DNA of 64,000 bases, taken from assembly GCA_027483645.1 (NCBI GenBank), contig JAIXUD010000020.1, forward strand, positions 62,001-126,000, given 5' to 3'. Positions within the stretch are counted from its first letter, which is position 1. Every line of letters begins with the position of its first letter. The notes below the pieces were generated by a model. The model saw nothing but the letters and a program-made list of their open reading frames with translations. It was not told the origin of the DNA and did no database searches. This document shows, piece after piece, positions 52,728 through 63,226 of the stretch. The stretch comes from Sphingobacteriales bacterium. Its GTDB lineage: Bacteria; Bacteroidota; Bacteroidia; Chitinophagales; CAIOSU01. The position numbers and the translations under genes were made by a program.

Positions 52728-53081
52728 ATGAAAACATCCGAAGTACTACAGCATTACAAAGACGGTGTAAGAAACTTTACCGGTATACACATCGTAGGAT
52801 CGTTGGCTGGCGAAAACCTGGAAGACGTTGAGTTTGTAGAGTGTTCCCTTTTGGTAAACTTTAAAGGGGCCAACCTAGCAAACTCCAAGTTTGTGAAAGG
52901 CAACATCAAAAACGCCAATTTTATAGAGGCCAACCTCAGCAACGCCAAGTTTGAAAACATGGTAATTGATGCGGCCAATTTCAGAGACTCCAAAACCGAG
53001 GGCTTGTCTTTTAGGCACAACCGCTACGCTGGAAGCTACGCCACTCAAGAGGATTTTGATGATAGGATAAAGTATAATTGA
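52728..53081 (+). CDS. Pentapeptide-repeat protein
   Basis: 117 residues. After EVLQHYKDGVRNF, a row of A(D/N)Lxx-type repeats: LVNFKGANLANSKFVKGNIKNANFIEANLSNAKFENMVIDAANFRD. These build a right-handed quadrilateral beta-helix. The TAxxTTT box (TATCTTTA at 52714) is one mismatch from consensus. It is clearly paralogous to the gene at 54457-54831, which shares the YKDG/YQNGER start and the NSKFxxGNIK..DF core. No known target. Confidence 0.85.
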   Translation: MKTSEVLQHYKDGVRNFTGIHIVGSLAGENLEDVEFVECSLLVNFKGANLANSKFVKGNIKNANFIEANLSNAKFENMVIDAANFRDSKTEGLSFRHNRYAGSYATQEDFDDRIKYN

Positions 53082-53219
53082 GCACGGGTGCTAGGTGTCT
53101 TTGAGTGTAGGGTTTTATGAAAATCTGGCATTAGAAAACATCATTGGTATAAGTTCCCTTTATTCTATCATTGCCATTTCAATAGTATAAGGCATAGATT
53201 GATTCACTAGTTATTTTCT

Positions 53220-54431
53220 ATGACCGCCAAATCACCTGCTGAATACCAATCGTTCCTCGAAAACCTGAAGCGGCACATCCAAAGCCGCCAGGTGCAGGCT
53301 ATGCTCACCGCCAATAGCCAATTACTATATCTGTACTGGGAGTTGGGGCATTTCATTTTGCAACAGCAAAGCGAGCAAAGTTGGGGCACAAAGGTAATTG
53401 ACCAATTGGCAGCGGACCTTAAAATTGAGTTTCCTAATTTAACAGGGCTTTCCGCGCGCAACTTGAAGTATATGCGCAAGTTTGCCAAAGAGTACAATGC
53501 TGTTTTAATTGTGCAACAGGTTGTTGCACAAATGGAATACAGCTGTTTTGATGTGGATAAAAAGTCCGAAAACCTAATTGTGCAACAGGTTGTTGCACAA
53601 TTAGGAAATGATGTTTCAGCAGAGCAAAATGAACCTAAAAATGCAATTACGCAGCAACCTGCTGCACAATTGCGGGAAAGTTTTTATACCGAAAACAGCA
53701 TCATCCCATTTAGCATTTTCATCAGGCACATCATTTCAAAATTACCTTGGGGACATCTGGTAACATTGATGGACAAAACCCCAGAAATGGGGGAACGTCA
53801 ATTTTATGCAAATAAGGCTTTTGAAGAAAGCTGGTCTCGAAATGTGCTAATCAATAAAATAGAAACGAAGCTCTTCCAGCGCAAGGGAGCCCTGAGTAAT
53901 AACTTCGCTGCTACACTATCGCTACCACAGAATGATTTGGCCAGGGAGATTTTCCACGACCCGTATTTGTTCCAATTTCTAAAAATTGATGACACTCGGC
54001 TGGAGAACGAGTTGGAGGATGGTTTGATATCTAACCTGCAAAAATTCTTACTAGAGTTGGGTAAGGGCTTTGCGTTTTTGGGCAAGCAGTTTCATCTACC
54101 AGTGGAGGGCGAGGATTTTTATGTTGACCTACTATTCTTCCATACGCACCTCAATTGCCATGTGGTAATTGAGTTAAAGATTGGCGCATTTAAACCAGAT
54201 TATGTGGGTCAGCTTAATTTTTATGTGAACGCCGTCAACGGCCTTTTGAAACGCAATCACCATAACCCCACTATTGGTTTGTTACTGGTTAAAGAGAACA
54301 ATAAGGTGATCGCGAAATACTCATTAGAAGGGGTCAATAATCCTATAGGCATAGCACAATATCAGCTCTCCGAAGATTTACCAACGGAAAAGCAATTGCA
54401 GGAACTGTTGCAGCGGCCGATAGAACATTAG
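53220..54431 (+). CDS. DUF1016/YhcG-type PD-(D/E)XK nuclease with triplicated motif
   Basis: 403 residues. The N-terminal helical DUF1016_N domain has LYLYWELGHFILQQQ and GLSARNLKYMRKFAKEY. The C-terminal nuclease domain shows FAFLGKQFHLPVEGEDFYVDLLFFHTHLNCHVVIELKIGAFKPDYVGQLNFYV, which holds the D...ExK catalytic set. Between them the usual single VQQxxAQ motif before PWGHLVTLMDK is present three times (VQQVVAQ, VQQVVAQ, TQQPAAQ), each copy encoded by a DNA palindrome. YhcG proteins are DNA nucleases of unclear role, some near restriction or mobile genes. It lies between two paralogous pentapeptide genes. Confidence 0.88.
   Translation: MTAKSPAEYQSFLENLKRHIQSRQVQAMLTANSQLLYLYWELGHFILQQQSEQSWGTKVIDQLAADLKIEFPNLTGLSARNLKYMRKFAKEYNAVLIVQQVVAQMEYSCFDVDKKSENLIVQQVVAQLGNDVSAEQNEPKNAITQQPAAQLRESFYTENSIIPFSIFIRHIISKLPWGHLVTLMDKTPEMGERQFYANKAFEESWSRNVLINKIETKLFQRKGALSNNFAATLSLPQNDLAREIFHDPYLFQFLKIDDTRLENELEDGLISNLQKFLLELGKGFAFLGKQFHLPVEGEDFYVDLLFFHTHLNCHVVIELKIGAFKPDYVGQLNFYVNAVNGLLKRNHHNPTIGLLLVKENNKVIAKYSLEGVNNPIGIAQYQLSEDLPTEKQLQELLQRPIEH
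53509..53672. repeat. Three palindromic repeats within the DUF1016 gene
   Basis: Copy 1: TTGTGCAAC / GTTGCACAA (53509-53531). Copy 2: CCTAATTGTGCAAC / its exact complement, 14-bp arms (53573-53605). Copy 3: 13-bp arms with two mismatches (53644-53672). Copies are about 70 bases apart and all encode xQQxxAQ. Confidence 0.8.
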
Positions 54432-54456
54432 TATATCCCAACAAGGACACGTCTCT

Positions 54457-54831
54457 ATGGAAGAATATAATTCGGCGGCGGAAATATTAAAGCGCTACCA
54501 AAACGGCGAACGTTACTTCTGTGACATTGATATGGAAAATGAATCCTTTGAAGGGGCAACATTGCAAGGAGTTACTTTTGAAAGAAGCTTTCTTTATGCT
54601 GATTTTCGGGGAGCCAACCTCAAAAATTCTAAATTCATCAATGGCAATATTAAATGCTGTGATTTTAGAGATGCCGACCTAACCAACGCACATTTTGAAA
54701 ATGTGGCAATCGAGTCGTCAGCATTCAAGGGAGCTGTTGTTGAGGGCATTTATTTCGACCGTAATTGGTGTTTCGGTCAAGAAGTTAGCCAAAAGGATTT
54801 TGAAGAATCGATACGGTTTACTGATTATTGA
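54457..54831 (+). CDS. Pentapeptide-repeat protein, paralogue of the one at 52728
   Basis: 124 residues. EILKRYQNGERYF, then repeats FEGATLQGVTFERSFLYADFRGANLKNSKFINGNIKCCDFRDADLTNAHFENVAIESSAFKG. It matches the upstream paralogue over most of its length, including the KNSKFxxGNIK core, and ends QKDFEESIRFTDY against QEDFDDRIKYN. The DUF1016 gene separates the two. No function can be assigned. Confidence 0.85.
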   Translation: MEEYNSAAEILKRYQNGERYFCDIDMENESFEGATLQGVTFERSFLYADFRGANLKNSKFINGNIKCCDFRDADLTNAHFENVAIESSAFKGAVVEGIYFDRNWCFGQEVSQKDFEESIRFTDY

Positions 54832-61999: not shown

Positions 62000-63226
62000 T
62001 CAAATCCCCAGCTCCACCTGAAATAGCGCACCCCAAGAGTTCTTGTTGTTCTGCAGGCTGTAGTTGTGGTCTCGCGCATCGTAAAACATGCTTACCTGTA
62101 CTTTCACACGGTGCCTTTGTATGTATTTGGTGGCCCCTATCTCCAGTATTTCGCGGGTGTCTTCATCTCTAGCTATATCAGCCGTGGGTTCTAAGTAAGA
62201 GTACCGGAAAGCAATCTCGTACATCTTAGGGAACACATACGAAACTTGATGGTTGGTACCCTGGCCTTCAAAAGCATAGCGTATGTCGCCTTCGTCGTTT
62301 ACGGTATATGGGTCGCCAGCCGTGCGGCGGAGGTATTCGGCATTGTATGCCCAGCCATTCCATTTAAAACATAGGTCAGTAATCAGCGTGCCGAGGTTCT
62401 TTTCGCCATACAGTTCCCTTCCTAACTGACCACCGGTGCGGGTGGTTTTATGGTTGAAGCTATACCCACCGGCAATGGAGAGTTTGGGGGTTGGCTCGCG
62501 CACTAGGTCACCTTCGCTGTAGTCGCCATCGCCCAAAAACTCGCCAAAAGGCAGCAGCTCTAGCCTGCCTGTATAAGCCAAGCCATCGCTGGTAAAGATG
62601 GGGCTGCGGCCTTCGCCTGTACTTATCGCGCCTTTTAAGTGATAGTGGAAAGTACTGCCGATATTACCGTAATAATATATTTTGATACCAAAATCCCTAT
62701 CGAGCGTGAGCGCACTGTTTACTATGGAGCGCTCGGCAAACTGCAATTGCCCAGATGAGTTTACCCGCTGGCGGTTGCCCGGCAGCTTGTTCAGCCCGAA
62801 GCCAATATGGAACTTGCTGGTAGGCTTATAATAGATTATCGCATCGCGCACAATGTTGGCCACACCTGTATTCTCGGCATCTTGGTCGCCGCGCGAAAAG
62901 GATAGCTGTATACTATAGTCCAACTTGGGGGTAAGCAAAAAACCATCGAAGCGTAACCTCAGGCGGCGTACTCGGGCTTCAAATCGGTCTACACTTAAAT
63001 CGGTTGCCGACTTGCTATAATACCCCAGCCGGTTCTGCATCCGAAAACGGAAGTTGATATAAAAAGTACTGTCTTTCGACATTACCTGTAATCCCTTGAA
63101 GTTATTAATCATCGCCCTCTCGTCACTTTCTAGTTGGGCAAAGAGGGTTAATGGGCAAACCAGTAAGACCAGCAAGCACCACATTCCGAGCAAACCATGC
63201 TTTGCACTCTTAACCTTAGCTTTCAA
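62000..63226 (-). CDS. Phosphate-selective porin (OprO/OprP-like)
   Basis: 408 residues. The TTG at 63226 gives a basic n-region before the signal peptide MWCLLVLLVCPLTLFAQ; the ATG at 63184 would start directly in the hydrophobic part. Mature region begins FKGLQVMSKDSTFYINFRFRMQNR, followed by DRFEARVRRLRLRFDGFLLTPKLDYSIQLSFS, as in OprO/OprP 16-strand barrels; the C-terminal strand ends with a hydrophobic Ile. Anion or phosphate uptake across the outer membrane is the family role. Preceded by a TAACTTTG box at 63264-63271. Confidence 0.85.
   Translation of the reverse strand: MKAKVKSAKHGLLGMWCLLVLLVCPLTLFAQLESDERAMINNFKGLQVMSKDSTFYINFRFRMQNRLGYYSKSATDLSVDRFEARVRRLRLRFDGFLLTPKLDYSIQLSFSRGDQDAENTGVANIVRDAIIYYKPTSKFHIGFGLNKLPGNRQRVNSSGQLQFAERSIVNSALTLDRDFGIKIYYYGNIGSTFHYHLKGAISTGEGRSPIFTSDGLAYTGRLELLPFGEFLGDGDYSEGDLVREPTPKLSIAGGYSFNHKTTRTGGQLGRELYGEKNLGTLITDLCFKWNGWAYNAEYLRRTAGDPYTVNDEGDIRYAFEGQGTNHQVSYVFPKMYEIAFRYSYLEPTADIARDEDTREILEIGATKYIQRHRVKVQVSMFYDARDHNYSLQNNKNSWGALFQVELGI

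Follow-up and report, generated by a model that had tools for sequence, protein, structure and literature searches.

Why should a nuclease gene carry much the same palindrome three times within its coding sequence? The question is raised by a yhcG-type gene in a 64,000-nucleotide stretch of DNA (the window) that spans positions 62,001 to 126,000 of contig JAIXUD010000020.1 from a Sphingobacteriales bacterium (assembly GCA_027483645.1). Proteins of the YhcG/DUF1016 family are commonly encoded by chromosomes, plasmids and prophages and are listed as a phage-defence candidate; we know of no function established for them. The explanation that best accounts for the evidence as a whole, and one that comparison of sequences makes very probable, is that each palindrome serves as a cognate site to which the gene's own protein product binds. 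That the protein recognizes the palindrome in its own gene in a sequence-specific manner is, taken by itself, a reading we hold with still greater confidence. Coordinates of the features are collected in Table 1.

A single family of direct repeats is found in the window gene, consisting of 26-nucleotide (nt) copies at 53506-53531 and 53575-53600, which are identical, and at 53644-53669, which is 69% identical; the spacing is 69 nt in both cases. The three palindromes that coincide with these copies are all in frame and encode IVQQVVAQ, IVQQVVAQ and ITQQPAAQ, the third copy having a centre of the reverse-complement type and QQP in place of QQV. A preliminary description of this DNA, made from the letters and their open reading frames (ORFs), had reported three hairpin-forming segments about 70 bases apart in a DUF1016 nuclease gene, each encoding an xQQxxAQ motif with the frame kept, and had read them as a palindrome multiplied inside the gene; all of this is borne out at the DNA level. 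One hairpin had been given 14-bp arms and a 5-base loop. The best hairpin of the gene (53573-53605) is indeed perfect, although its arms measure 15 nt and its spacer 3 nt. When the codons of the window gene were shuffled synonymously 3000 times, a site (here and below at least 9 of 11 paired positions, unless stated) arose in 18.7% of the shuffled genes, two sites in 1.7% and three in 0.03%, while one site of at least 10/11 pairs arose in 2.9%.

The 43-nt spacers between the copies are dissimilar (18/43, 15/43 and 15/43 positions identical), and so it is the palindrome itself that was repeated and not a 69-nt unit; a 69-nt tandem repeat was thereby ruled out as the origin of the three copies. 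Since the window gene has no palindrome directly before PWGH, it has three copies in the linker in place of the single copy at the usual position. A close relative that might reveal the route of this triplication was sought among 60 relatives, where the best other match is 45% identical; the closest homologues found reach about 45-51% identity.

The distribution of such palindromes was followed in a gene set that came for the most part from Bacteroidota (two samples, of 148 and 247 genomes, and 80 regions), together with viral contigs, plasmids of several phyla and relatives of the window genome. For the plasmids, 20 loci were picked for diversity from 471 and 458 matching records, and one of the 20 has no ORF of at least 250 amino acids; palindrome counts leave out ORFs below this length or with ambiguous bases. 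Near-duplicates are few in the set (L024 and L133, for example, are the same gene), and counts were also computed at the level of clusters. Scans with single proteins recovered one relative on the genome contigs and none on the viral contigs; an alignment query recovered 66 loci on the latter.

An in-frame palindrome is present in 188 of 214 family genes, as against about 11% of synonymous shuffles, and the proportion is similar when one gene is taken from each 70%-identity cluster (124 of 139, versus 11% in shuffles). Among the first 178 genes, 155 have a site where synonymous shuffles predict 16.0; at least 10/11 pairs are reached in 115 (1.6 expected) and 11/11 in 58 (0 expected), and the remaining two codon phases yield 20 and 14 sites. 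In this architecture a CA.TG centre is separated on either side by seven variable bases from an outer AATT, and the usual site lies six codons upstream of a conserved W. Of 89 palindromes scored, 82 have their axis on codon position 1. All four base-pair types are present at the variable arm offsets 3-9, and 66 distinct 7-mers are found among 103 genes. Where a gene has extra palindromes, these resemble its best one (60% identity at offsets 5-9, versus 38% between genes), and in-gene matches to a gene's own palindrome number 55, versus 3 for a reversed control that spanned the gene and its flanks. Both orientations of the centre are found among the copies. Most family genes seem, on this evidence, to carry their own, differently spelled site within the coding sequence.

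The occurrence of palindromes in so many homologues means that the palindromy is an old feature of the family. The preliminary description had asked whether this was so, and had proposed counting the motif in other YhcG proteins; the palindrome is indeed ancestral in this sense, while its copy number and sequence are specific to each gene, and QQxxAQ proves to be one spelling among others, the palindromes of Escherichia coli YhcG reading QTMSG, QTPSA and QTLSA. In one subclade (L032, L062, L084, L110, L113 and L119) the motif KLSxLLRE is repeated in the middle domain. In L032 that region also holds a second palindrome that has the same arms, and thus the DNA site seems to have imposed the second copy of the protein motif. 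Another five genes (L071, L141, L147, L201 and L228) have a second cognate-type palindrome at codons 66-94, in or near a stretch that encodes YGKxIVxTLSxxL and is predicted to be helical.

A mobile palindromic element or hairpin-templated mutation, similar to Rickettsia palindromic elements (RPE), REP or PARCELs, would copy itself within the gene and play no role for the protein. Such an element would be in keeping with copies that multiply within genes, preserve the frame and take both centre orientations. It is not dispersed in the window's own genome, however, where matches to a 20-mer of the palindrome with up to 3 mismatches are confined to this gene except for three 3-mismatch matches elsewhere. 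In a pattern census of 99 genomes, true palindromes occur, on our reading of the rows, mostly in yhcG genes or their fragments (the exceptions are G090 and G014). The spacers are unrelated, and the covariation described below between protein residues and arm bases would be left unexplained. We therefore regard this alternative as highly improbable, and the spread of a palindromic element suggested in the preliminary description finds no support; a dispersed repeat of the REP or RPE type, which should be present in many copies, was rejected on the same three matches.

The pairing is kept while the sequence varies, as would be expected of structured RNA, and the palindrome might therefore form a stem in the transcript that serves in translation pausing, as an RNase site or in RNA-based autoregulation. 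An RNA stem, however, tolerates G-U and not A-C, and among the 225 mismatched positions of 204 distinct palindromes there are 37 GT/TG, 59 AC/CA and 129 other combinations, without an excess of G-U. A scan of positions 53000-54600 with Rfam gave no match at the gathering score (sub-threshold matches are mostly to miRNA models), and the arm bases track helix residues of the protein. The widely differing arms, the use of all four pair types and the lack of a G-U excess point to DNA and not to mRNA structure, and an mRNA hairpin is even less probable than a mobile element. Duplication through a cruciform or hairpin, also raised in the preliminary description, is not supported either: G-U pairs are not in excess, and the dependence of the arms on particular residues of the protein is left unexplained by hairpin formation alone.

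The relation between protein and palindrome is revealed by covariation. Once the palindrome-encoded residues are masked, the mutual information that protein columns (numbered as in L175) share with arm bases is highest at residues 81, 78, 134 and 82. The mean corrected value for block 76-90 is 0.17, compared with -0.08 to 0.05 for the remaining blocks, and this block coincides with helix 76-88 of the AlphaFold2 model. In weighted contingency counts, R78 occurs with G7 in 47.6/52, K78 with C7 in 8.5/9, E81 with C8 in 11.2/13.4, Q82 with A5 in 7.9/7.9 and R82 with C5 in 21.2/28.2. Gln82 and Asn82 prefer A5, and Arg82 prefers C5, which is G on the opposite strand; most of these residue-base pairs match general preferences of DNA-binding proteins.

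The same associations were examined in phylogenetically independent pairs taken from a tree for which the tested columns had been left out, and 289 columns were ranked. The contacts had been chosen from 155 of the same 173 genes, and 18 plasmid genes also entered this test. Switches in the predicted versus the opposite direction number 24/0 of 31 pairs for R78-G7 (the next column reaches 8), 8/0 of 12 for E81-C8, 12/0 of 15 for R82-C/T5 and 19/0 of 27 for S106-A3, and each of these ranks first of the 289 columns. Residues 78, 81, 82 and 106 are all at a distance from the palindrome itself. Weaker contacts are K81/W81-G9 (3/1 of 6), R134-A2 (4/0 of 6, not top) and T/A134-G3 (7/2 of 15). The window protein agrees with the three sites of its gene, R78, K81, Y82 and G106 (family numbering) going with G7, T8, A5/C6 and C3/A2, respectively, in the arms.

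A model trained on 155 genes was then applied to 36 further genes, of which 33 have a site. The gene's own site is placed at a mean percentile of 0.052 among 27 distinct barcodes and is best outright in 18 of 33, while random columns give a mean of 0.36 (minimum of 40 sets, 0.25). G7 accompanies R78 in 19/19 of these genes and other residues in 1/14. Because the 18 plasmid genes had entered the pair test, only 15 genes of L308-L325 are fully untouched; by hand count, G7 occurs among these with R78 in 8/8 and with other residues in 1/7. Palindromy across the family exceeds what codon and amino-acid constraint produce, the arm bases covary with residues of the helix, and the association predicts sites out of sample.

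Covariation of this kind could also arise within the protein, if the helix is in contact with amino acids that the palindrome encodes, and the palindrome only mirrors that contact. The usual site does adjoin the helix in the gene, and base 7 of the right arm is a second codon position, which sets the amino acid. The same code is nonetheless followed by 76 palindromes away from the usual place, including those in linkers and in an early helix (R78-G7 35/4 versus 5/32), which argues against a within-protein contact as the cause. Palindromy is moreover destroyed by synonymous shuffles, one palindrome (L126) lies in a different codon phase, and a few copies are found in non-coding DNA, 23 bp upstream of the gene in L064 and immediately before it in L107. 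Intramolecular coevolution is the least probable of the alternatives considered here.

The domain composition of the window protein is that of a nuclease with a helical N-terminal part. DUF1016_N is matched at 125.2 bits (cut-off 32.8) and YhcG_C at 190.2 bits (cut-off 32.5), and the PDC-S02 models of PADLOC are matched with a best E-value of 4.1e-129. Kosinski 2005 predicted a nuclease with an uncharacterized helical N-terminal domain of about 200 residues and described the E-D-E..K motif of the family (PMC1189080). The C-terminal domain resembles EndoMS (Z 12.1). Residues 29-150 align with the DNA-binding domains of Noc, ParB and Spo0J at Z 7.6-8.4 over 96-103 residues, middling values that for helical folds may reflect a common arrangement, and the likeness of the modelled N-terminal domain to ParB is suggestive only. 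A sequence search of solved structures gave a chance match only.

Several observations weigh against the palindromes being cognate sites that are read by this helix. A site is missing from 26 of the 214 family genes, and the sites of E. coli K-12 differ among themselves at offsets 7-9. When whole clusters are left out (17 clusters), the helix columns outperform all 25 random column sets and exceed the commonest base at offset 7 (0.71 versus 0.49) and offset 8 (0.65 versus 0.55), but they do not do so at offsets 3-6 and 9; their mean over offsets 3-9 is 0.476, versus 0.486 for the commonest-base guess, and it drops to 0.342 with 3 clusters. Since the helix does not surpass the commonest-base guess over all offsets, the code is partial. 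Residue 134, strong by mutual information, does not come first when independent pairs are compared and was set aside as a contact. Paralogues within one genome are no more distinct in their sites than genes of different genomes (means of 2.41 versus 2.38 of 7 matching), and the idea that they avoid a shared site is not supported. Finally, the likeness to ParB, at Z about 8, may be only a common helical arrangement.

Recognition of the palindrome by its own protein might proceed as follows. Probably as a dimer with a helix-turn-helix resembling that of ParB/Noc, the DUF1016_N domain would read a palindrome of about 27 bp (AATT-N7-CA.TG-N7-AATT), one helix reading arm bases 5-9 and residue 106 reading bases 2-3; we infer both the physical binding and the dimerisation. 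The site would be held in frame inside the gene, where it would occupy the fixed place ahead of the conserved W or, in a gene such as that of the window, lie in extra copies within a disordered linker. Because it lies inside its own gene, protein and site would travel together and change specificity together. As to the use of this arrangement, our first choice is local autoregulation by an intragenic operator, a guess that we rate at a little below an even chance. A bound dimer would block transcription and so keep a dangerous nuclease scarce, with extra copies adding avidity, and an operator within the gene would remain with the mobile nuclease wherever it lands. Autoregulation is not favoured by the finding that a further copy in flanking DNA occurs in few genes (3 convincing cases), so that operators at the promoter are not usual. 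As a third option, the protein may be parked or loaded on its own locus, by analogy with ParB on parS.

The yhcG gene of E. coli K-12 also has three palindromes, quite unlike those of the window gene in sequence. The first contains one mismatch in K-12, is perfect in 5 of 7 other aligned loci and has different perfect arms in a sixth; a further, non-coding copy lies 27 bp after the stop codon and was found by exact half-site match in 6 of the 8 E. coli loci checked. Two E. coli alleles are near-identical except for a patch at about nt 228-408 that holds both the recognition helix and the palindromes. Within the patch, 40, 39 and 26 of 60 bases are identical in three blocks, versus 52-60 of 60 elsewhere in the gene. 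This is a natural experiment in which, to judge from the sequences, site and predicted reader were exchanged together. In three E. coli strains (L160, L161 and L164), yhcG is interrupted at or beside the palindromes, by insertion sequences or by a deletion.

These alleles are also what might be left behind if the nuclease nicked or cut the palindrome in its own gene or in a rival copy, an action that would drive gene conversion, keep out incoming copies or exchange the specificity cassette. The family would then be a widespread one of self-addressed nucleases, each policing or converting copies of itself. The residues of the PD-(D/E)XK motif are kept, the C-terminal domain is EndoMS-like, and insertion sequence copies or a deletion adjoin the palindromes in some strains. 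The allele patch may, however, be plain recombination under diversifying selection, cutting of the intact gene would be suicidal without control, and in most loci for which annotation was seen no methylase gene adjoins (L290 is an exception). This reading seems rather unlikely to us. A homing endonuclease was rejected, as its own insertion should destroy the target, yet the candidate site is intact inside the gene.

A few related palindromes lie outside yhcG genes. In five viral contigs (L043, L045, L046, L048 and L049), a phage DNA polymerase-like gene includes the in-frame palindrome ATTGTGCAACAAGTTGCTGCACAAT, which encodes IVQQVAAQ; ATTGTGCAACAAGTTGCTGCACAAT is the type of site expected for a window-like YhcG and may be there by chance or as a phage target. 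Palindromes of the same architecture occur in non-coding DNA at L047:6556-6580 and in L272/L273 (G090 contig 5), near genes that resemble DNA-binding genes of the KfrA type. In G090 there are three identical copies, at least two of which precede CRISPR-like repeats. In the window, the yhcG gene is flanked on both sides by pentapeptide-repeat genes (52728-53081 and 54457-54831).

Table 1. Features of the yhcG-type gene, in window positions
Feature	Positions	Strand	Basis or remark
yhcG-type gene, 403 amino acids, DUF1016_N (PF17761) and YhcG_C PD-(D/E)XK nuclease (PF06250)	53220..54431	+	Pfam domains; PADLOC PDC-S02
Predicted recognition helix, model residues 79-91; R80, K83 and Y84 are family positions 78, 81 and 82	53454..53492	+	model helix and covariation
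Palindromic site 1, axis 53520, 10/11 pairs, encodes IVQQVVAQM	53507..53533		repeat finding and pair scoring
Linker, residues 98-162, mostly predicted disordered, contains all three sites	53511..53705	+	pLDDT <50 at 98-102, 107-117 and 128-162
Palindromic site 2, axis 53589, 11/11 pairs, encodes IVQQVVAQL	53576..53602		repeat finding and pair scoring
Palindromic site 3, axis 53658, 9/11 pairs, opposite centre, left half decayed, encodes ITQQPAAQL	53645..53671		
Usual family site position directly before PWGH, not palindromic in this gene	53717..53743		3/13 pairs
Gly178 codon, family position 106, following the W of PWGH; residue predicted to read inner bases C3/A2	53751..53753	+	
Nuclease core motif D303...E318-x-K320, putative activity	54126..54179	+	D303 and K320 invariant in alignment including the window protein

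If YhcG proteins recognize the palindrome that their own gene carries, the DNA sequence of nearly every member would reveal its target, and the function of the family could be tested directly. One stretch of DNA would then be both protein code and binding site across a whole family, and motifs such as QQxVAQ, QTxSA and RDAVRHE would in part be by-products of the operator. The residue-base rules are simple enough for testing as a natural DNA-recognition code, and should the nuclease indeed address itself, there would be thousands of natural enzyme-site pairs from which the recognition code of a new class of DNA-binding or DNA-cutting proteins could be read.

The parS site is generally described as nearly a single sequence across bacteria, with one copy inside spo0J itself; by contrast, nearly every YhcG gene has its own site. 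The proposed likeness to ParB-parS and Noc-NBS lies in a dimeric helix-turn-helix domain that reads a palindrome through a few specificity residues at the recognition helix and beyond, the four positions 173, 179, 184 and 201 of ParB (PMC7383237) standing against the strong positions 78, 81, 82 and 106 of YhcG. Unlike ParB and Noc, YhcG continues into a PD-(D/E)XK nuclease; only two Pfam domains are detected at E <= 0.001, and no CTPase domain was seen among them, no dedicated search for one having been made. By both Pfam domains and the PDC-S02 models, the window protein is a member of the YhcG family and of the phage-defence candidate PDC-S02. The available parts of the YhcG/DUF1016 literature searched, including PMC4316617, PMC1189080, PMC11341870, PMC7967276 and PMC11148124, do not mention a palindrome in the protein's own gene. 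A wider search on DUF1016, YhcG, coding palindromes and intragenic operators found no such report either, which is weak evidence, as its coverage excluded most subscription journals and bioRxiv. PARCELs are likewise coding palindromes repeated in frame in bacterial genes, but they are 25-residue tandem repeats, often in membrane-targeted proteins, and the abstract on them does not relate the sequence of the arms to a DNA-reading helix in the same protein (PMC2996958). Rickettsia palindromic elements also lie within genes without breaking the frame; they are selfish elements of about 100-150 nt spread across intergenic regions, RNAs and genes (PMC4316617), whereas the YhcG site is 27 bp long and belongs to one gene family. 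Perfect inverted repeats are kept in coding sequence in the mitochondria of Nematomorpha too, where they reach 284 bp in mitochondrial protein genes; the abstract describes no cognate DNA-binding protein (PMC6649704). Recognition of palindromes by helix-turn-helix domains, operators and coding palindromes are thus known singly; their combination within a single family of nucleases, where each gene embeds a site specific to it, appears to be new.
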